A stretch of DNA of 64,000 bases from Pedobacter cryoconitis (lineage in GTDB: Bacteria; Bacteroidota; Bacteroidia; Sphingobacteriales; Sphingobacteriaceae), in assembly GCF_014207135.1 (NCBI RefSeq), contig NZ_JACHCC010000008.1:62001-126000 (forward strand). Direction: 5' to 3'. The notes beneath the pieces are model-generated. The model was not told the DNA's origin. It saw only the letters and a program-made list of their open reading frames with translations, and ran no database searches. The translations under genes and the position numbers were made by a program. Each line of letters begins with the position of its first letter. Position 1 is the first letter of the stretch. Below, one piece after another: positions 30,732-41,200 of the stretch.

Positions 30732-31277
30732 ATGAACCGTATAACAAGTTTTTCTCTTGCTATTGCACTATTTTTCTTATCAGGGTTAATAAAAGCACAG
30801 GCCCAGAACTCAACTCTTCATGTAGAGATCAGTGGGGCCTTCACGATGAAAAAAGATTTTAATACAGATATCATATGGCGGCAGCTGACCGCTCAGACTA
30901 AGATCGATACCAATGCTACTTTTGGGTTCTTCACAGGCAGATCTGCTGCTATACCATTTTATTTTTCCTGCGTTCTGGTTGATATTCCTTCAAAAAAAAT
31001 CGGCCCTGGTACTTTTTCTGTAGTGGAAGTGAAGAATGATATCCCTACAAGTGACACCATCAAAAAGGGCGGTTTCATTGCCATAAAACTTAACAAAAGG
31101 AATGTCGCCCGTCAGGACGAATATATTTCTGTTCCGGGAACCGGAAATACAATTATCATCTTAAGTGTAAACGGGACGGTAGTCAATGGCAGTTTTAATA
31201 CCTTTATGCAATGCACTAACGATGAGAAGAAAATAATAAATGTCAAAGGCACTTTTAGAATAATTACTAAAAAGTAA
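30732..31277 (+). CDS. Secreted hypothetical protein, 181 aa
   Basis: Start set at ATG 30732, which gives a clean Sec signal (SLAIALFFLSGLIKAQAQ); an upstream in-frame ATG (30693) would overlap the previous gene and precede the signal. The mature part is an all-beta sequence: LHVEISGAFTM, KIGPGTFSVVEVKN, NTIIILSVNGTVVNGSFN, INVKGTFRI. Such repeated G-x-F/V strands suggest a lipocalin-like or carbohydrate-binding sandwich, but no family is recognised. It pairs with the LssY-like lipoprotein. Confidence 0.6.
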   Translation: MNRITSFSLAIALFFLSGLIKAQAQNSTLHVEISGAFTMKKDFNTDIIWRQLTAQTKIDTNATFGFFTGRSAAIPFYFSCVLVDIPSKKIGPGTFSVVEVKNDIPTSDTIKKGGFIAIKLNKRNVARQDEYISVPGTGNTIIILSVNGTVVNGSFNTFMQCTNDEKKIINVKGTFRIITKK

Positions 31278-31384
31278 ATCTCATGAGGGTAAGGAATGGT
31301 AATTTCCACATAAAACATTCACAAGATTCAATATCAAAACATCCCCCCACAAACTTTATACTTGCAGGGGGTACGTTCATGACA

Positions 31385-32926
31385 TTATATCGCGTCCATT
31401 AGCAGAGACACCGTAACTGTCGGATTGCCAAGCACTTTAAGTGGAACGGTATCCCCATACATTTCTTTATTGTTCGGCTCTACACGTATGCTGAGCTGAC
31501 CACCTTTTACAACGGATAGTGGTAATCTGAAGTCAAAATGAACTGTTGGTATTTTCATACAATTGGAACACTTTTCTACTTCGTCCGGCTGGAAAAAGAC
31601 CGATTTATCCAGAACCTTCTCATCTTTGAGCAGATACACCTTGAAAGTACCCGGGATCTTCGTTCTGTCCAGGTCTTCTATGCGTACATTAACCTCCTGA
31701 TCGTCGGCCGTAAATACACGTGCCATTCCCAGAAACAGGTGTTTATTTGTCTGCGCTTGTGGTAATTTCAAAGTCATAGATTCATACGAGACATCGAAAT
31801 TTGTAGCCAGGTCTATAGTAAATTCAGCAGTCAGATCATCCCGTTTCAAATTCTGTGCCCATGGATTCATCTTACCCAATGCAGCGTTGGTAAATACCAG
31901 GTAACTGGAGCTACTTTTGTTTTTAATGGTTTTCATGAAACCATCAACGGTTTGAGCATCGTTATTGGCCTGCCATATCCACCACATTCTATCCAGATTG
32001 CAATGGTAAAACCAAAAGATGGGATCAAACGCTGAAACATTTTGTTGTCCCATGGTATCACCCGTGGCATCATGTCCTGAATCATGCCCCGATATGAAGT
32101 CGAGGTTAGGAGTCCCATCAAGCAAACCATTGAAATTGTCCCACCATACTTCTGTCTGCGCATTGGCATAGTACTTCATTACATCAGCATTGAAGTTGTT
32201 TAAAATAGTCTGGGCATCATAACGGTTTGTTTGATAACCCGCCTTGTAATTGGGATTTTCACTTCCAGAGACTGTGCCGATATCAATGGGTAAAGTATAA
32301 GAACCAAAAGGTGCGTTGTACATCCAGTCGGGCAACAATTCATTAAAGTCCCAATATGGCAACGTTACATCTTCACATCCCTCAATTGAACGCAGGCAAT
32401 TTTCAAATGCCCACATCTGAACCCTGTGCCAGGGCTGAAAACCAGGATCGTGATGCTGACAGAATGCAAGTGGCAGTCCGTGTATGGCAGCATTCTGGAA
32501 ATATCCGTTCAGATTATCGGTACCAAGATTCATTATACCAATGAAAGCAGTCTTCAATTTTTCCAGTTCTTCGGTAGTCAGTGAGGTCAGGCTCTTCCTG
32601 ATTCTGCCTGTTCCAGACATTTTGAACAATGACTTGTTTTGATGTTGTGGTTCTCCTTCAGGGTACCCTGCTTCCATCCAGGTTAGAAAACTGCTTATCA
32701 TTTCTTTTGACCATGGTGTTCCCGGATCCATCGGCATCCTGCCCTTTGCATCAGGAGGAAGGGATACACGTTGATAAATATCTGGGGCATGGCTCACAAC
32801 GAATGAATAACTGCTCAGGTCAAATCCCCTGATAGCCCGCATTTTCTCAATATCCAAAGCGGTAAAATAATTTTTAATTTCTCCATGCCATGTAGGAGCC
32901 TGGGCAATTTGTGAGATTGTTAACAT
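31385..32926 (-). CDS. Tyrosinase-family copper oxidase
   Basis: 513 aa. The CuA site has His149, then HH at 158-159 and His167 (QHHDPGFQPWHR), with Cys156 two residues before the His pair. CuB has HDSGHDATGD and FYHCNLDRMWWIW. Tyrosinases hydroxylate phenols and oxidise diphenols to quinones. Residues 15-92 resemble the heme-free cytochrome-like module seen before some bacterial tyrosinases (RMPMDPGTPWSKEMISSFLT, then WMEAGYPEG). The C-terminal 130 residues are a beta-domain, as in plant polyphenol oxidases. No signal peptide is visible. Single gene. Confidence 0.87.
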   Translation of the reverse strand: MLTISQIAQAPTWHGEIKNYFTALDIEKMRAIRGFDLSSYSFVVSHAPDIYQRVSLPPDAKGRMPMDPGTPWSKEMISSFLTWMEAGYPEGEPQHQNKSLFKMSGTGRIRKSLTSLTTEELEKLKTAFIGIMNLGTDNLNGYFQNAAIHGLPLAFCQHHDPGFQPWHRVQMWAFENCLRSIEGCEDVTLPYWDFNELLPDWMYNAPFGSYTLPIDIGTVSGSENPNYKAGYQTNRYDAQTILNNFNADVMKYYANAQTEVWWDNFNGLLDGTPNLDFISGHDSGHDATGDTMGQQNVSAFDPIFWFYHCNLDRMWWIWQANNDAQTVDGFMKTIKNKSSSSYLVFTNAALGKMNPWAQNLKRDDLTAEFTIDLATNFDVSYESMTLKLPQAQTNKHLFLGMARVFTADDQEVNVRIEDLDRTKIPGTFKVYLLKDEKVLDKSVFFQPDEVEKCSNCMKIPTVHFDFRLPLSVVKGGQLSIRVEPNNKEMYGDTVPLKVLGNPTVTVSLLMDAI

Positions 32927-33222
32927 GGTTTAAATGGTTTTGTTTCAGGTTAAAGTTTTAAAGAGCTCCGCTTTTCTATAAACACCACAACCAGCAGGAG
33001 TATCCAGCGTAAAGTTACCCTATAAGGATCAGCCTGACATAAGTAGAAATCCCCTTTTCTTAAAACAGGTGTTTTTACCTGCCAAGCTCAATCAGAAGAA
33101 ATAGGTTCTTAAAGTTTTACCGACAGTAAAATATTTCTTTTTGTCAGTTCCTAAAGCAGTGATAACCTCGTTAATAATAGTGGCGGATTTAAACACTTCC
33201 GGCAAGGTGGATAAAATGAAGA
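32927..33222. other. Intergenic spacer upstream of tyrosinase and the 85-aa gene
   Basis: About 300 bp between divergent genes. I see no convincing gene, hairpin or exact TAnnTTTG on either strand. The last part before 33259 is conserved with the second copy of the 85-aa gene and is described there. Confidence 0.4.
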
Positions 33223-33516
33223 AAAAACGCTACTTTTAGGGCATACACAAGCGCTTAGATGAAATACCACTACCAATTTGTATCAAGGACCACAGTAAGA
33301 ATAGAACTCATACCGGAAGACAAAAAAGAAACAGCACTGATAGACAGCTTTTTTGCATCTGGAGAAGATGATGAGCAGCTTATGGTACTTTTCCGTAAAG
33401 GAATTGAAGATTATGCCACCAATGCGCAACTTACAGAAACCAGGTTCATGAATTTTCCGAAAGTAGCACTTTGTAGTTATAATGTGGTGGTACAAACTGC
33501 CGAATTAATAAAATAA
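33223..33516 (+). repeat. Direct repeat, left copy (85-aa gene plus leader)
   Basis: This stretch recurs at 38259-38552 in the same orientation. Identity is about 90% through the first 240 coding bases, and 27 of 30 bases match in the leader just before the ATG. The last four codons differ. The two copies enclose a 4.7-kb operon. Confidence 0.85.
33259..33516 (+). CDS. 85-aa hypothetical protein, copy A
   Basis: Starts MKYHYQFVSRTTVRIELIPE, a beta hairpin, followed by helical segments (ETALIDSFF, DDEQLMVLFRKGIEDY) and a final strand (KVALCSYNVVVQT). No signal, no known family. 76 of 85 residues are identical to copy B at 38295-38552; about two thirds of the base differences in the shared part are silent, which suggests both copies have been kept for function. 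The leader just before the ATG, including TACTTTTAGGG, is conserved too. Confidence 0.65.
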   Translation: MKYHYQFVSRTTVRIELIPEDKKETALIDSFFASGEDDEQLMVLFRKGIEDYATNAQLTETRFMNFPKVALCSYNVVVQTAELIK

Positions 33517-33548
33517 AAATACTTTTATCTTCCTTTTCTGATCCCCTG

Positions 33549-34712
33549 TTATATCATTTTCTTGATTTGCGAAGCCATAAAAGTAGTCCCCAAACCAAGC
33601 AAGGCGATCAGGGCAAAAGACCAGCGTAAATTAGTTGCCTGCGCGATGAAACCGATCAAAGGCGGCCCTATCAGGAACCCCAGAAAACCAACAGTCGATA
33701 CGGCTGCAATGGCTATTCCAGGAGCCAGCGTTTTTGATTTACCTGCAATAGCTAACACTAAGGGTACCACGGCTGATACCCCAACACCTACCATTAAAAA
33801 ACCGGCTGTTGCAGTATATATATTCGGAAAGATAACCGCGAGTAATAAACCCGATGAGCTGATTACACCACTAAACTGCAAAATTTTACTAACTCCATAT
33901 TTTGTTACCAGGCCATCGGCAGTAAAGCGGCCCATTGCCATGGTAGCCATAAAAGCTATACTACCCACCGTGGTGAGCGTTTCGGGTACAGCGACCACTT
34001 TTTGAAAATAGACCCCGCTCCAATCGAACATCGTTCCTTCTGTGATCAGGCTTGCGAAAGCAATAAATCCCAGTTTCAGTATATTATAATCGGGCTTGGC
34101 AAACAGGGGCTGTGATTCTGAAACTTCATCCTCGGGCAACAGATTTCTATAGGAAACCATGACCATGATCCAACACAGTATACCAATAATGATATAATGC
34201 ATCCAGAGCGGCCATTGGAGATTTATAGCCAGTGTACCTATAGCAACGCCGCTAAAGCCGGCCAGGCTCCATAAACCATGAAAAGAGGCCATGATAGAAC
34301 GGCCGTATAATGATTCGATGCCTACAGCCTGAGTATTCATGGCCACTTCAAATACATTATTCAAAAAACCAAAGCAGAATAGTACAATAACCAATTGCCA
34401 GATATGCGCAATAAGGCCAATCATACATAAAACTAGCGGAAATAATATCCCCGCGGCTATCAGTACACGGCGGCTTTTATATTTGCTTACCATCCAGCCC
34501 GAAATGGGCAAGCTGGTAAGCAAGCCTATGGGTAAAGCAAATAACACGCTTCCCAGTTCGGCATTGTTTAAACTAAAAAATGCTTTCAGGTCATGAATGC
34601 GGCAGGCCCAGCTGGAATAGGTTAAACCGCAAATAAAGAAAAATATACAGGTAGCGACGCGGTGCGAACGCTTGATATCAACAGATGAAGTAGATAATGA
34701 TGATGACAACAT
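33549..34712 (-). CDS. MFS transporter
   Basis: 387 aa, twelve membrane helices. The N-terminal half has SSWACRIHDLKAFFSLNNAE and GWMVSKYKSRR (the loop 2-3 MFS signature region), and the second half has FTADGLVTKYGVSK. The look is that of the YbjJ/FucP-like group, which contains both sugar permeases and small-molecule exporters. It is the last gene of the aminotransferase-dehydrogenase-HAD operon; a hairpin (34749-34782) lies in the 82-bp gap before it, so its level may be set separately. The context favours export of the pathway product (inference). Confidence 0.82.
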   Translation of the reverse strand: MLSSSLSTSSVDIKRSHRVATCIFFFICGLTYSSWACRIHDLKAFFSLNNAELGSVLFALPIGLLTSLPISGWMVSKYKSRRVLIAAGILFPLVLCMIGLIAHIWQLVIVLFCFGFLNNVFEVAMNTQAVGIESLYGRSIMASFHGLWSLAGFSGVAIGTLAINLQWPLWMHYIIIGILCWIMVMVSYRNLLPEDEVSESQPLFAKPDYNILKLGFIAFASLITEGTMFDWSGVYFQKVVAVPETLTTVGSIAFMATMAMGRFTADGLVTKYGVSKILQFSGVISSSGLLLAVIFPNIYTATAGFLMVGVGVSAVVPLVLAIAGKSKTLAPGIAIAAVSTVGFLGFLIGPPLIGFIAQATNLRWSFALIALLGLGTTFMASQIKKMI

Positions 34713-34748
34713 AAATTTATTTTAAACCCAAAGGGTGGTATCAAAATT

Positions 34749-34782
34749 ACCTGTCCGGAATATTTAATTATTTCGGACAGGT
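34749..34782 (-). terminator. Hairpin between HAD and MFS genes (terminator or attenuator)
   Basis: Arms ACCTGTCCGGAATA and its partner TATTTCGGACAGGT-like sequence form a stem of about 14 bp with one wobble pair; on the minus strand it is followed by AATTTTG. It stands inside the operon, 13 bp after the HAD stop codon, and would lower transcription of the transporter gene. Confidence 0.55.
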
Positions 34783-34794
34783 ATCATAATTTAG

Positions 34795-35481
34795 CTACCA
34801 GGCAGGCACGTCCTGGTTCCAGAGATGCTGATAGATCTCATCATAATCATCAAGTTTGACAATATTACTGATCTCAGTCAGTTTTTTATTGTTGATGCCG
34901 ATGAAGCGAATAGCCAATTGCTTAGTAGCTTCATAATCCCACCGCCCATCGCCAATGTAAGTAATTTCAGTAAAGGGTACTTCCATCTGGTGTATTTTAT
35001 TCATCTGACTTATGGTATTACCTATAATATCACGTCTTGCTTTCGCATCCTGGGCAAAGGAAGCAGCAATGCAGCCGCTGGTGTCTATACCAGCACAACG
35101 CAACTTATATAAAGCTGACTCGCGCCAGCCCCCGGTAGCTAACCCGATACTGACCCCCTCTTGCTGGCAAAGTGTTTGGATGATCTTCGCGGCTTTAGGT
35201 ATTTCTTTCATACAATTATTCTCCAAAGCATAAGCCCCGGCAAGTAAATTACAAAAATGACTGATAAACTCATCCCGCTCCGCCTCGGTATAAGTACGCT
35301 GATACTGTTCCTGAAATAACTGATCAATAATACCAGAATCTGTAGTATTTACATAATGACCGTAATTGGTTTCGAAACCTTTGAAATTAAATACGTCTTC
35401 CAAAGCCTGTGTAAAACAACGATCGTCAACTTCCGTAGTATCGGTTAAAGTTCCGTCGATATCAAATATAATGTATCTCAT
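34795..35481 (-). CDS. HAD-family phosphatase (beta-phosphoglucomutase-like)
   Basis: 228 aa. Motif I FDIDGTLTDT, a helical cap (residues about 15-95), motif II LATGGW, a Lys in AKARRDIIG (motif III region), motif IV YIGDGRWDYEA. Enzymes of this subgroup remove phosphate from small sugar or alcohol phosphates or move it within them. Lies 33 bp after the zinc dehydrogenase gene. In the operon it could take a phosphate off an aminated intermediate before export, as the HAD phosphatase NtdB does in kanosamine synthesis; this parallel is inference from gene order only. Confidence 0.83.
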   Translation of the reverse strand: MRYIIFDIDGTLTDTTEVDDRCFTQALEDVFNFKGFETNYGHYVNTTDSGIIDQLFQEQYQRTYTEAERDEFISHFCNLLAGAYALENNCMKEIPKAAKIIQTLCQQEGVSIGLATGGWRESALYKLRCAGIDTSGCIAASFAQDAKARRDIIGNTISQMNKIHQMEVPFTEITYIGDGRWDYEATKQLAIRFIGINNKKLTEISNIVKLDDYDEIYQHLWNQDVPAW

Positions 35482-35514
35482 AATTTGAATGGGGGTATTA
35501 ATTAAAAGAAATTG

Positions 35515-36537
35515 TTAAATGGTGATCACAGATTTTAAACTCGAAATATTGTTGCTGCGGTCACGCGTGCTCACATTAACACCTAAGTGCTCAATAGCCA
35601 GCTTAAAATCGTCAAGATTATAATCGTTAGTGATGATCTTTTCCAACCCCATGCGCCCGCTGTTGATCATATCGACCGCGTGCTTAAAAGTGTCCATAGA
35701 ATCAATGGAGCCAATAATAGAAATACTGCGATCGGCTATTTCCCTCGGATTAATGGTCTGCTGATTATTACGCAAACCCATCATAGATATTTTACCACCA
35801 TCGGCAATAGCCTGCATCGATTTTTCCAGTAGCGAACCAGTGGTATCAATGATCAGGTCATATTGATTTTTCTGCGGAATAAACGCCGGTTCTATCTTCC
35901 AGTGTTTTGATAAAACGTTGTTCTGCTCTATCAACTTGATCCTTTGGCGTGATGCTTCATAAACCACACCTTCCTGTATACCATGTTGGGTAAGCGCCAT
36001 ATAAAAAAGCAAACCTATTGGGCCACCTCCTAATATAGCTGTGCGCATAAAAGGGGTTACTGCCAGTTTTTTTACCGCTGTCAATACACAGCTTAACGGT
36101 TCAGACATGGCACCCTGTTCAAACGGGATATTGTCGTTGAGCGGATAGATGAAATGCTTGGTGGTTTTAAAGTACTTGGTAAATGTACCATCAATAGATA
36201 CACCAGCTTCGGTACTTGATTTATGCAGGCAATGATTACGCTGCCCTCTGCGACAGTTTTCACAATAACCGCAAAAGTAAGTCGGATCGATGATCACGCG
36301 CTGCCCTATTTGGCAGCTTTCAACCCCGCTTCCCTTAGCGACAATAACGCCGGCAGATTCATGCCCGATGATCACACTGGGTTTTGCCATATATTCTCCT
36401 GAGATGATACTCAGGTCGGTACCACAAATACCTGTAGCTTTAATTTCTACAATCACCTCGTCAGGTAATGTAATCTCCGGTTCTGCTCTGTCCTGGATAT
36501 CAATGTCCCAGGCCCCGCTGTATACAATTGCTTTCAT
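35515..36537 (-). CDS. Zinc-dependent medium-chain alcohol dehydrogenase
   Basis: 340 aa. Catalytic zinc ligands Cys38 (GICGTD) and His59-Glu60 (GHE); structural zinc Cys89, Cys92, Cys95 and Cys103 (CGYCENCRRGQRNHC). The Rossmann dinucleotide motif is GGGPIG near residue 170. Closest in style to sorbitol, threonine and L-idonate dehydrogenases, which oxidise a polyol or sugar hydroxyl to a ketone with NAD(P). It lies 3 bp after the aminotransferase gene, so a ketone product could be the amine acceptor of that enzyme. Confidence 0.87.
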   Translation of the reverse strand: MKAIVYSGAWDIDIQDRAEPEITLPDEVIVEIKATGICGTDLSIISGEYMAKPSVIIGHESAGVIVAKGSGVESCQIGQRVIIDPTYFCGYCENCRRGQRNHCLHKSSTEAGVSIDGTFTKYFKTTKHFIYPLNDNIPFEQGAMSEPLSCVLTAVKKLAVTPFMRTAILGGGPIGLLFYMALTQHGIQEGVVYEASRQRIKLIEQNNVLSKHWKIEPAFIPQKNQYDLIIDTTGSLLEKSMQAIADGGKISMMGLRNNQQTINPREIADRSISIIGSIDSMDTFKHAVDMINSGRMGLEKIITNDYNLDDFKLAIEHLGVNVSTRDRSNNISSLKSVITI

Positions 36538-36540
36538 ATT

Positions 36541-37776
36541 TTATAGCTGACTAAAAATTTTATTTAAACGCGAATAGATCTCTTCAATATCATCAACAGT
36601 GGCGGTAAGTGCCGGCCGCACTTTAACCACATTGCCAAAACCATAGCGGGAACTCCTTAAAATGAGGCTATGATCTTCAAATGCAACCTCAATGATCTTA
36701 TTCGTTAAAACCGGATCAGGGACACCATCTTTAGCTATGATCTCCAGACCCCACATATAACCTATACCCCGTACATCCCCTATGATGTGGGGGTAATTTT
36801 CTTTAAGCTTGTTCAGCAATTCGCCAAGGACAATTCCGGAGCTGCGCACATTTTCCAGGAAACCTTCTCTTGTTACGACTTCCATCGTTTTTTTCGATGC
36901 AGCCAGTGACAAGAGGTTACCGCCTGAGGTATAAGAGTGTTCGAATTTTTCCAGTACCGCGTACTCGGGTTTATACAGAATGGCTGCTGCCGGTATACCA
37001 ATACCGCCCAGACCTTTTGCAAGCGTAATAATATCCGGCTTAATGTCATAATGCTCACTGGCAAACATATAACCCGTGCGGCCGATGCCTGTTTGCACTT
37101 CGTCGGCAATGAGGGTGATTTCCAATTCATCGCATATTTGCCTTACTTTTTCAAAATACCCTTCCGGCGGCATAATATTGCCCCCATTACCCAATATAGG
37201 CTCCATAATCATGGCTGATACATTGCCCGAGCTACCATATTCTACATAATCATAAATAGCTTCTGCACATAAAAACCCACATTGATCCGGGCCTTTAGCC
37301 GAAAACGGGCAACGGTAGCAATACGGTGCAGGTACAATGGCATTTTTGGTAGAAATAGTATTGGAAAAAGATTTTCGCCTGAATGCATTCCCAGAGATAT
37401 TGGTGGTATACAGCGTTTGCCCATGATGTGATAGCGACAAGCTAACCACCTCATTTTTGCCGTTAAATTTATTGGCGATCTTTACAGCACCCTCATTGGC
37501 TGTTGAACCAATAATGTCGCGCATCCAGCCATCGGTAATGTACTCCGGAGCTTCGTCAAGAATGCAGTCAAGCACTTGCTGCGCCAATTCGGCGGTAAAT
37601 GCCGATGATACATGGATCAGATTTTCAACCTGTTGCTTAAGTACCTCCACCAATTCGGGGTGACTATAGCCCAGTGAGAGGTTAAATGTTCCTGAAGCCC
37701 CATCTATGTACTCTTCATTTTCAGGGGTGTAGAGGCGAATGCCGCTACCTTTTGTAAAAGTGACGTTGTTGGACAT
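36541..37776 (-). CDS. Class III PLP aminotransferase
   Basis: 411 aa. Asp225 in ADEVQTGIGRTG holds the PLP ring nitrogen, and Lys254 in TLAKGLGGIG forms the Schiff base; GSTANEGAVK binds phosphate. A Cys-rich loop (YCYRCPFSAKGPDQCGFLC) is as in the omega-aminotransferase/dialkylglycine-decarboxylase branch. Class III enzymes aminate aldehydes or ketones far from a carboxylate. First gene of a minus-strand operon with dehydrogenase, HAD and MFS genes. Upstream lies an 18-bp palindrome of LacI-operator type. Confidence 0.87.
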   Translation of the reverse strand: MSNNVTFTKGSGIRLYTPENEEYIDGASGTFNLSLGYSHPELVEVLKQQVENLIHVSSAFTAELAQQVLDCILDEAPEYITDGWMRDIIGSTANEGAVKIANKFNGKNEVVSLSLSHHGQTLYTTNISGNAFRRKSFSNTISTKNAIVPAPYCYRCPFSAKGPDQCGFLCAEAIYDYVEYGSSGNVSAMIMEPILGNGGNIMPPEGYFEKVRQICDELEITLIADEVQTGIGRTGYMFASEHYDIKPDIITLAKGLGGIGIPAAAILYKPEYAVLEKFEHSYTSGGNLLSLAASKKTMEVVTREGFLENVRSSGIVLGELLNKLKENYPHIIGDVRGIGYMWGLEIIAKDGVPDPVLTNKIIEVAFEDHSLILRSSRYGFGNVVKVRPALTATVDDIEEIYSRLNKIFSQL

Positions 37777-38258
37777 GTTTTTTAGGTTAGAAATGATTAA
37801 TATTTGGTTTGTATAAACTTTTAATTATTTATCAGACAATAAGATTCCATATAGCCAATTTTCAATGCCATAAACAAATAGGTTATATTATCTTATAATA
37901 AAACGTTTTATTAGATAAACAACAGTTTAAAAAGTAACGATTTACCCGGCCGCTTTCAATTGAAGTCTCCCAAAGTGATAAAGAAATTTTGCTTTCCAGG
38001 TGCTGCTGCCATTACCCCTATCTGCCCCTTTTGACCAGGCGGAAAATAGATAAGCCGGGAGTAACAGTTCATATAATTAACTATCGAATGAATATTTGAC
38101 CGCTGCATATTAATTTTATATTAACTACTAATAAACATACGATAATATTTTTTACAAATCAAAAAAAATATATTTTCATTAATAGGAGAATCGAATAGCC
38201 CAACTAAGAACAGGCGAAAAAAAAAACACCAATCATTTAAAACATTGCCGATATCTAA
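37777..38258. other. Intergenic control region between the aminotransferase operon and the right direct repeat
   Basis: AT-rich spacer of about 480 bp. It holds the palindrome at 37896-37913. No exact TAnnTTTG is seen on the minus strand upstream of the aminotransferase, and no gene-like frame is convincing. Confidence 0.4.
37896..37913. promoter_or_regulatory. 18-bp perfect palindrome, LacI-type operator candidate
   Basis: TAATAAAACGTTTTATTA reads the same on both strands and has the central CG pair flanked by A/T runs usual for LacI-family operators. It lies 120 bp before the aminotransferase start codon. No LacI-type gene is in the window, so the regulator would be elsewhere. Confidence 0.5.
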
Positions 38259-38552
38259 AAAAATGCTACTTTTAGGGCGCACCCAAGCGCTTAGATGAAA
38301 TACCACTACCAATTTGTATCAAGGACCACTGTAAGGATAGAGCTCATACCAGAAGACAAAAGGGAAACCGCACTGATAGACAGCTTTTTCGCACCAGGAG
38401 AAAATGATGAGCAGCTGATGGCACTTTTCCGTAAAGGAATTGAAGATTATGCCAGCAATGCATACCTTACAGAAACCAGGTTCATGAATTTTCCGAAGGT
38501 AGCGCTATGTAGTTACAATGTGGTTGTACAGACCACCGAAAACATTGCCTGA
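38259..38552 (+). repeat. Direct repeat, right copy (85-aa gene plus leader)
   Basis: Same orientation and about 90% identical to 33223-33516 over the leader and first 80 codons. Recombination between the copies would remove 5.04 kb, including the whole aminotransferase operon. Confidence 0.85.
38295..38552 (+). CDS. 85-aa hypothetical protein, copy B
   Basis: 76 of 85 residues match copy A (33259-33516); changes are Lys to Arg, Ser to Pro, Asp to Asn, Val to Ala, Thr to Ser, Gln to Tyr and three at the end. Unknown small alpha/beta protein without signal peptide. It lies 25 bp before the Crp/Fnr-type regulator gene on the same strand, which might mean joint transcription; copy A has no such partner. 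Confidence 0.65.
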   Translation: MKYHYQFVSRTTVRIELIPEDKRETALIDSFFAPGENDEQLMALFRKGIEDYASNAYLTETRFMNFPKVALCSYNVVVQTTENIA

Positions 38553-38577
38553 CAATTCAAATCATAAAACCTGGCCT

Positions 38578-39165
38578 ATGCTTGAACAATTAAAGCATAA
38601 ATTTCATTTAAATGACTCCCAGTGGGAGCTATTTTCTTCCTGTCTGAAAAAACTCAAAGTCCCTGCAAAAACAACCCTGTTACAGGAAGGTGAAATCGCT
38701 AAAAGAATATTCTTTATTGAAAAAGGCTGTATCCGGGTATTGTTCAATCATGATGGCAGGGACCTTACCTTACAATTCTTTTTTGAAAATGAGACGGTGG
38801 CTTCGATGGAAAGCTTTAAAAAAGGTGCTCCCAGCCTGATGGGCATGGAAACCATTGAGCCTTGTACCTTGTGGTTTATCAGCAAACACGATCTTGATCT
38901 GTTATTACCAGAACTGGAAAAAGTATCCGGATTGAGGAACAAATTTACCGAGTATCTTTTTGAGCGGATGTTCCTGTACATGAGACACTTTTTCTCCTTC
39001 ATTAAAGACAGTCCCCTGGAGCGCTATCAGAACCTGATCCAGGAAAAACCAATTGTTATTCAGCGCGTACCTCAGCATTATATTGCTTCCTATCTGGGCA
39101 TCAGTTCCGTACACCTCAGCCGGATCAAAAGCCAGCTGGTGCGAAAAAACATGAAGTCTTCTTAA
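38578..39165 (+). CDS. Crp/Fnr-family transcription regulator
   Basis: 195 aa from ATG 38578; an earlier in-frame ATG (38518) lies inside the 85-aa gene and adds a peptide of no domain. Residues 10-120 are a cyclic-nucleotide-binding-type beta roll (AKTTLLQEGEIAKRIFFIEK, then GCIRVLFNHDGRDLTLQFFF) without obvious Fe-S cysteines, and about 150-195 is a helix-turn-helix (HYIASYLGISSVHLSRIKSQ). This is the common Bacteroidota one-component Crp type. It lies 107 bp before the quinone-oxidoreductase gene, a likely target. Confidence 0.86.
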   Translation: MLEQLKHKFHLNDSQWELFSSCLKKLKVPAKTTLLQEGEIAKRIFFIEKGCIRVLFNHDGRDLTLQFFFENETVASMESFKKGAPSLMGMETIEPCTLWFISKHDLDLLLPELEKVSGLRNKFTEYLFERMFLYMRHFFSFIKDSPLERYQNLIQEKPIVIQRVPQHYIASYLGISSVHLSRIKSQLVRKNMKSS

Positions 39166-39272
39166 AAAAATTCAAAGATTTTCAGCCTGTTTTGACTGGT
39201 ACATTTGATAACAAATGTTATCGCCAGCCTTGATTATAGCAACTAATTTTACAGTATTAAAAACGTACAAAA

Positions 39273-40241
39273 ATGAAAGCAGCAGTCATATATCAGGTAG
39301 GCAGTATGCCTCAATACGCAGAGATCGCAGAACCGGTTGTTCAACAGGAAAACAACGTGTTGGTTAAGGTCAGGGCCGTCGCCATCAAACATCTCGACCG
39401 GGCCGTAGCCAGCGGTAAACATTATTCCTCAGGACAGACTTCCGGAGCCAGAATTGTAGGCGGCGATGGTATCGGTGTTTTGCCCGATGGCCAGCGAATC
39501 TATGGTTTCGGTGTGGGTGGGACACTGGCAGAACAGGCAATATTCCTGAAAAGCTGGAGTACCCCGGTACCCGACGGACTGGATGACATTACCGCAGCAG
39601 CACTCCCTAACGCCGTCATGGGCTCGGCCATGGCCTTACTTTTCCGTGCGCAGCTTCAACACGGTGAAACTGTATTAATCAATGGAGCAACCGGTTTTAC
39701 CGGAAAAATGGCAATACAACTCGCAAGGCATTATGGTGCCGGGAAGATCATTGTCACAGGACGAAACCAGGAAACGCTAAATTCCCTTACGGAACTGGGC
39801 GCAGACCAGCTCATCTCATTGAATGAGAATGACGAAGCTATAGTCAGTCAGTTAAAGGCAATTCATGCAGTTACCCCAATTCATGTCGTTATTGATTACC
39901 TTTGGGGGCATTCGGCACAGCTTATCCTGTCAGCATTAAAAGGAAGTGGTACATTTAGTCCCAGGACCCGTTATGTATCTATCGGTGCCATGAGCGGCGA
40001 TATCATCCAGTTATCCTCACAGATCTTACGGAGCATCGACCTCCAGCTATCGGGTTCCGGTCTGGGAAGCTGGACAAAAGATGAGATCGGTTTATTATTT
40101 CGTGAAATACTACCCGAGATATTTCAGCTGGCAGCAGCAGGTAAACTAAAGGTCGAAGTCATTACAGTATCCCTAAAAGATATTGAACAACTATGGGAAA
40201 CAGACCCAGGAAACGGAAAAAGACTCGTAGTCAGCATTTAA
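39273..40241 (+). CDS. Zinc-free MDR-family quinone oxidoreductase / alcohol dehydrogenase
   Basis: 322 aa. GroES-like N-terminal half (MKAAVIYQVGSMPQYAEIAE) and Rossmann half with INGATGFTGKMAIQLARHYG and VIDYLWGHSA. Neither the catalytic nor the structural zinc ligands of classical alcohol dehydrogenases are present, so an NADPH quinone or enone reductase is more likely. It follows a Crp/Fnr regulator on the same strand and ends in a strong terminator (40245-40284). Confidence 0.82.
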   Translation: MKAAVIYQVGSMPQYAEIAEPVVQQENNVLVKVRAVAIKHLDRAVASGKHYSSGQTSGARIVGGDGIGVLPDGQRIYGFGVGGTLAEQAIFLKSWSTPVPDGLDDITAAALPNAVMGSAMALLFRAQLQHGETVLINGATGFTGKMAIQLARHYGAGKIIVTGRNQETLNSLTELGADQLISLNENDEAIVSQLKAIHAVTPIHVVIDYLWGHSAQLILSALKGSGTFSPRTRYVSIGAMSGDIIQLSSQILRSIDLQLSGSGLGSWTKDEIGLLFREILPEIFQLAAAGKLKVEVITVSLKDIEQLWETDPGNGKRLVVSI

Positions 40242-40244
40242 GCC

Positions 40245-40284
40245 AATACGAAAAGCCTCTATACAATCCGAGGCTTTTCGTATT
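40245..40284. terminator. Bidirectional terminator between quinone oxidoreductase and SDR genes
   Basis: Perfect 15-bp arms (AATACGAAAAGCCTC / GAGGCTTTTCGTATT) with a 10-nt loop, between convergent genes. Confidence 0.75.
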
Positions 40285-40303
40285 TAAAATCAAAATTCAG
40301 ATT

Positions 40304-41200
40304 TTAACGCTGACCGGCAATCCAGGAAGACACAGACTCCCCTTTCGGCTTCCAGCCTAGTAACCGCCTGGCGTGAACCGCCCTTACACGACTATTAGAT
40401 CCTAATGCAAAACGCGCCCAGTCCCCTAATTCTGCTAATGCATCCTCAGCGTCCCATGAACCTACCTCGCCCCCATAACCCAGCGCCCTGCTGATATATC
40501 CCGCAAGATCAAGGTAAGATTCTTCTCCATTTTCCGCATAAAAATATCCCGCAGAAGGAGCTTTTTCCAAAGCCAGGTCATATAATTCAACCAGATCAGC
40601 AATATGCACATTTGACCATCTGTTAACCCCTTTACCTAAATAAACACCTTTACCCAGCTCTCTTGATTTACGAAAAACAACAGGTAACTGATCGCTTTCG
40701 GTATCCAGCCCCAGACTGTTCCCGTAAATCATAGAAGGTACAATTACTATCGTCCTGATCTGTTTCTCTACCGCAGCAATACGTACCATATTGTTAATAG
40801 CCGTCCGCTTAACCCGAACTTCCATAGGTGTAAACAAACTTTCCTCATCAAATATTTCCGGATTTTCAGACCTGCCCAGCACATCATCGCCAACCACGCT
40901 CGATCCCGATGTATGGATAAAGGTTTTTCCCGTGCCTTCCAGGGCATTGAGCATGGTCTCAATTGCAGAACGATGATCGGAATCTGCGGTGTGTATAACT
41001 GCATCCGAGAGCCGGGCATACTCATCAAGCAATACCTGATCTTCTAAAGTCCCCAGTACAGGGATAATAGCCAATTGTCTTAGTTCGGCTTCTTTTGCAG
41101 GATTACGATATAATCCATAAATTATATGTCCCTTGTCTGCCAGGAATTTTGCTACAGAACTGCCAATATATCCCGTAGCCCCTGTTAAAAATATTTTCAT
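40304..41200 (-). CDS. Extended SDR, NAD(P)-dependent oxidoreductase
   Basis: 298 aa. TGATGYIG near the N-terminus is the NAD(P)-binding loop; the Tyr-x-x-x-Lys pair is missing in the usual place, and HTSGSSVVGDD marks the Ser region, so it may be a weak or atypical catalyst of the NmrA/epimerase-like group. The C-terminal part has NRWSNVHIADLVELY and LLGWKP, usual in extended SDRs. It is divergent from a LysR regulator gene (101-bp gap with an 18-bp palindrome), which likely controls it. Confidence 0.8.
   Translation of the reverse strand: MKIFLTGATGYIGSSVAKFLADKGHIIYGLYRNPAKEAELRQLAIIPVLGTLEDQVLLDEYARLSDAVIHTADSDHRSAIETMLNALEGTGKTFIHTSGSSVVGDDVLGRSENPEIFDEESLFTPMEVRVKRTAINNMVRIAAVEKQIRTIVIVPSMIYGNSLGLDTESDQLPVVFRKSRELGKGVYLGKGVNRWSNVHIADLVELYDLALEKAPSAGYFYAENGEESYLDLAGYISRALGYGGEVGSWDAEDALAELGDWARFALGSNSRVRAVHARRLLGWKPKGESVSSWIAGQR

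Follow-up and report, generated by a model that had tools for sequence, protein, structure and literature searches.

How does a metabolic operon come to lie between two direct copies of a small gene, and do these copies belong to it? The question is raised by a locus of Pedobacter cryoconitis (the host; genome size 6.0 Mb) within the 64-kb stretch of contig C8 that we analysed as a whole, in the following referred to as the window. Here, four genes are bordered on both sides by a gene for an 85-aa orphan protein, which we call P85 (P85-L on the left, P85-R on the right). A sequence-only reading had pointed out that such an arrangement can arise by duplication with insertion, and had suggested a job for the small protein, perhaps linked to the enclosed genes.

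The direct repeat and its two genes

We compared both repeat copies, whose coordinates are provided in Table 1. The two are found as initially described, i.e., in the same orientation and about 90% identical, with the start shifted by one position (33222 instead of 33223) and the similarity ending around codon 82 and not at the stop codon. Each copy comprises 283 nt, of which 254/283 positions are identical in a gap-free alignment (spacing 5036; longest identical runs 46, 32 and 32 nt), and no other direct-repeat family of at least 60 nt is present in the window. The repeat contains a 37-nt leader plus codons 1-82 of P85. That is, its limits are those of the gene unit: it starts at -37, just before a box resembling the Bacteroidota -7 promoter element (consensus TANNTTTG; PMC6847099). 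The respective leader motif GCTACTTTTAGGGC is located about 20 nt before the start codon, and a similar box is found upstream of most other P85 genes. For the 400-nt flanks around the two copies, we find no similarity above that of shuffled sequence.

The changes between P85-L and P85-R are indeed mostly silent, with 17 synonymous versus 8 nonsynonymous ones over the 82 compared codons (dS 0.44, dN 0.042). Both copies are under purifying selection, since the resulting dN/dS of 0.096 implies that both were retained as proteins. What sets P85-L apart from P85-R and the relatives are its last 3-4 codons: alignment and 3' DNA give a C-terminus ELIK for P85-L, compared to ENIA for P85-R, which is like the DNVA of relatives. 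The 3' end of P85-L thus appears to be altered. Within the host genome, P85 is not scattered in many copies; by protein as well as by DNA there are two full ones, and other DNA matches span 19-38 nt. The two are each other's nearest kin, apart from all other members of the family, and P85-L has the longer branch. Recombination between them might in principle lead to loss or amplification of the operon.

Table 1. Features of the repeat-bordered region (window coordinates).
Feature	Position	Strand	Basis and remarks
Direct repeat, left copy	33222..33504	+	Promoter and codons 1-82 of P85-L; 90% identity to right copy
P85-L, 85-aa orphan protein	33259..33516	+	ORF; alignment; 3' DNA
MFS transporter (operon gene 4)	33549..34712	-	Pfam MFS_1 8.9e-19
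HAD-superfamily hydrolase (operon gene 3)	34795..35481	-	Pfam Hydrolase 6.4e-14
Zn-dependent medium-chain dehydrogenase (operon gene 2)	35515..36537	-	Pfam ADH_N 4.2e-28
Class-III aminotransferase (operon gene 1)	36541..37776	-	Pfam Aminotran_3 1e-78
Perfect 16-nt palindrome AATAAAACGTTTTATT	37897..37912	.	Upstream of operon; one occurrence in genome
Direct repeat, right copy	38258..38540	+	90% identity to left copy
P85-R, 85-aa	38295..38552	+	ORF; C-terminal ending as in relatives
Crp/Fnr-type regulator	38578..39165	+	Pfam cNMP_binding 4.7e-13; 25 nt downstream of P85-R

The enclosed operon

The stretch between the copies holds a complete operon, as had been proposed, which comprises four consecutive minus-strand genes. 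The upstream palindrome is a possible operator. The dehydrogenase comes nearest to the NCBIfam profiles for scyllo-inosose 3-dehydrogenase and for threonine dehydrogenase, both far below cut-off, and the MFS protein is exporter-like.

A related gene set is the kanosamine operon ntdCAB/kabCAB of Bacillus, which encodes a sugar dehydrogenase, a PLP aminotransferase and a phosphatase (PMC8788734). In terms of gene content, on which this comparison is based, the host operon likewise combines dehydrogenase, aminotransferase and phosphatase activities, when its HAD-type hydrolase is taken as a phosphatase by family. It differs in its Zn-type medium-chain dehydrogenase, in the additional MFS gene and in its aminotransferase, which is of class III (Aminotran_3) and not of the NtdA type. 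NtdA belongs to the DegT-type aminotransferase class. Given these differing enzyme classes, the comparison suggests a substrate only as far as an amino sugar or amino alcohol, i.e., the operon most likely makes or processes such a compound.

The operon and its flanks in relatives

Next to the host, the same four genes are found in the same order in 10 of 144 other Pedobacter genomes, none of which carries P85. For 7/10 (G013-G016, G042, G095, G127), the operon adjoins a divergent five-gene amine-utilisation cluster (amino-acid permease, glutamine synthetase-like protein, Fe-alcohol dehydrogenase, peptidase C26, aldehyde dehydrogenase), and in G034, G093 and G139 it is located elsewhere. The amine pathway of this Puu/gamma-glutamylation type, adjoining the operon in the seven relatives, is also present in the host, but there it is encoded on another contig (C16), unlinked to the operon.

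We compared the divergence of both units. With their operon proteins concatenated, the host and the operon-bearing clade show 80-81% identity, whereas clade members with a cluster divergence like that of the host (85-88%) show 91-93% operon identity. The host operon is thus more divergent than vertical descent predicts, which suggests a separate acquisition, probably from elsewhere; homogenising transfer among the relatives could be another cause of the excess. We also considered that the operon had simply moved away from the amine cluster, and rejected this because the excess divergence argues against it. The excess supports an operon of separate history between the copies.

At the right-hand flank, G013-G016 and G099 have conserved both the crp-type gene and the oxidoreductase next to it, with neither P85 nor the operon beside them, such that the arrangement is not shared by all close relatives at this locus. 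The blastn alignments between the host and the nearest of these relatives start at the crp start codon or at most 14 nt before it (the exception being the more diverged G015), and the region found upstream of the crp-type gene in the relatives is replaced by P85-R in the host. On the left, a tyrosinase-domain protein (31385-32926) is matched at 90-92% identity by proteins of just three other Pedobacter genomes, where the surroundings differ, and the similarity is confined almost to the gene itself. The junctions, compared with relatives of the operon and of the tyrosinase gene, show no shared ends that reveal a mechanism. Overall, the region is a mosaic whose units have separate histories.

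Distribution and structure of P85

P85 matches are found in up to 18/144 other Pedobacter genomes (including two weak ones, G040 and G047, the latter not reproduced by blastp), with neighbourhoods that vary and in no case include this operon. A profile search of a family-wide sample yields matches in 16/399 genomes from 4/25 genera, no P85 is found in a class-wide sample of 395 genomes apart from the host, and plasmids, phages and viral contigs yield no relatives. Sequence searches of Pfam, NCBIfam, PHROGs, PADLOC and PDB return no credible match. P85 is an uncharacterised, Sphingobacteriaceae-restricted family.

A confident structure model based on 20 sequences (pLDDT 92.8) shows the order beta-beta-alpha-alpha-beta-beta. 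Foldseek reports no match to PDB and viral models at E<=0.001. The best VIA-align result is the eukaryotic/archaeal ribosomal protein S24e (Z 4.9, rmsd 3.0, 64 aligned), a score within the range of common arrangements, from which we therefore deduce no P85 function.

Some members show peculiarities. G035 and G048 carry second P85 copies elsewhere; the one in G035 is frame-disrupted (L099:9958-10143), next to an intact one in the same genome. A DnaQ-like exonuclease that has a GIY-YIG domain is encoded divergently from P85 in four Pedobacter genomes (L092:8558-9964 and the corresponding sites of L093, L094 and L097). Three tails, namely QLSFL, QLRLDF and EQLSFEL (L084, L089, L090), resemble sliding-clamp binding motifs; a clamp-binding role was considered on their account and dropped, as most members are without such tails.

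Neighbours of distant P85 branches

Defence genes are found by PADLOC within about 6 kb of seven distant P85 relatives: an endonuclease effector (L098), QatC (L101), AbiLi (L102), Upx and PDC-S32 (L150), AbiLi and E1-E2/JAB (L151), PtuA/PtuB (L152) as well as a defence-type reverse transcriptase (L153), where L150, L151, L152 and L153 are longer stretches around the matches L130, L131, L132 and L133, respectively. Since the first neighbours were picked by eye, a batch comparison is the fairer test. Scanning four genes on each side (E<=1e-15), PADLOC reports 104 matching families at P85 loci (132 proteins) versus 5 at control loci (124 proteins), a difference exaggerated by the family counts because single proteins match many related models. 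Directly downstream of a P85 gene, L090:9797-13035 encodes a coupling protein of the TraG type and a relaxase of the MobA/VirD2 type.

Such defence and conjugation neighbours are found mainly in distant branches, and mostly ordinary ones accompany the P85 genes closely related to that of the window. It is conceivable, if rather unlikely, that the wider function of the family relates to islands for anti-phage defence or conjugation, with the window's Pedobacter branch as a domesticated stand-alone form.

Origin of the arrangement

One answer to the opening question would be a functional cassette, in which P85 belongs to the operon, e.g., regulates it or assists its products, and is kept on both sides for that purpose. 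It would explain the purifying selection on both copies, and their orientation (P85-R divergent from the operon, P85-L convergent to it) can be read that way. Against it, only the host combines P85 and the operon among 145 Pedobacter genomes, and P85 relatives lack the operon in all other contexts that we examined. With 18 and 10 of 144 genomes, about one overlap is expected by chance; that is, the zero overlap is no evidence of exclusion and only shows a lack of linkage. Of the job suggested for the small protein, the selective maintenance of both copies is borne out, and the link to the enclosed genes is not: P85 and the operon occur apart elsewhere, and when P85 neighbours are tabulated, the operon lies beside no P85 gene outside the host. 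We consider a functional cassette highly improbable. A mobile element with the P85 genes as its ends, i.e., a compound transposon or an integrative element, is very unlikely as well. Direct repeats do bound a segment of separate history, and conjugation genes lie beside some distant P85 relatives. However, none of the genes between the copies encodes a transposase, integrase or recombinase; nor do the repeats themselves encode a transposase, as P85 is without Pfam, NCBIfam or PHROG match and the four enclosed genes are metabolic. No inverted repeats of at least 25 nt are found in 31000-41000, and the copies differ from att sites or insertion sequences in being coding genes that are diverged and under selection.

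The remaining explanations differ in whether the second P85 copy came before or with the operon. On the one hand, P85 could have been duplicated locally in this lineage, followed by insertion of the unrelated operon between the copies, which would result in the same structure. This main rival is quite possible: P85-L and P85-R are closer to each other than to any other member, P85-L has the longer branch and altered 3' end that a secondary copy might have, and second copies are also known from G035 and G048. It requires, however, a duplicated unit whose two ends both happen to fall almost exactly on the limits of the gene, and an independent insertion that hits precisely the space between the copies while leaving no transposase trace. 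On the other hand, operon-bearing DNA may well have integrated through the P85 gene, in which case the copies mark a recombination event and not a functional cassette. We tentatively favour this integration through P85 given the repeat limits that match gene and promoter, the varied P85 flanks and the operon's own history. With homology limited to the gene and its short promoter, the repeat would end there, as observed, whereas any further duplicated sequence would be expected to remain visible at a dS of only 0.44. Furthermore, P85 relatives occur in many different flanks, such that the P85 loci of two strains would share only the gene. The close kinship of P85-L and P85-R, the crp-type gene with neither P85 nor operon in relatives, and the amine cluster on C16 count for integration as well.

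Integration through P85 would have proceeded as follows. In this view, P85 is an accessory gene of Sphingobacteriaceae that stands alone and whose place varies from strain to strain, and the host would have had a single P85 just upstream of its Crp-type regulator gene. Incoming DNA, carrying the four-gene operon and a diverged P85, would have used the P85 sequence common to both for joining, in the manner of a Campbell-type (single-crossover) integration. The result would be P85-operon-P85-crp, after which selection would have continued to maintain both proteins. What resembles Campbell-type integration is an inserted segment with a direct copy of one gene at either end, and homology limited to that gene; the bounded DNA would be foreign as judged by its excess divergence. 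The host case differs in being natural, with copies that are 10% diverged. We infer both the recombination route and the donor: a donor locus with P85 beside the operon is not found in the 145 Pedobacter genomes and may be unsampled, and the crossover point inside the copies is not mappable without donor and recipient alleles.

Implications

The arrangement reflects mostly ordinary genome shuffling. The locus is a clear case in which direct repeats look like a designed cassette, whereas according to the relatives the histories of gene and operon are independent. In addition, it draws attention to a conserved family of small proteins, as yet unnamed, that could become a subject of its own and has distant members in defence and conjugation islands.
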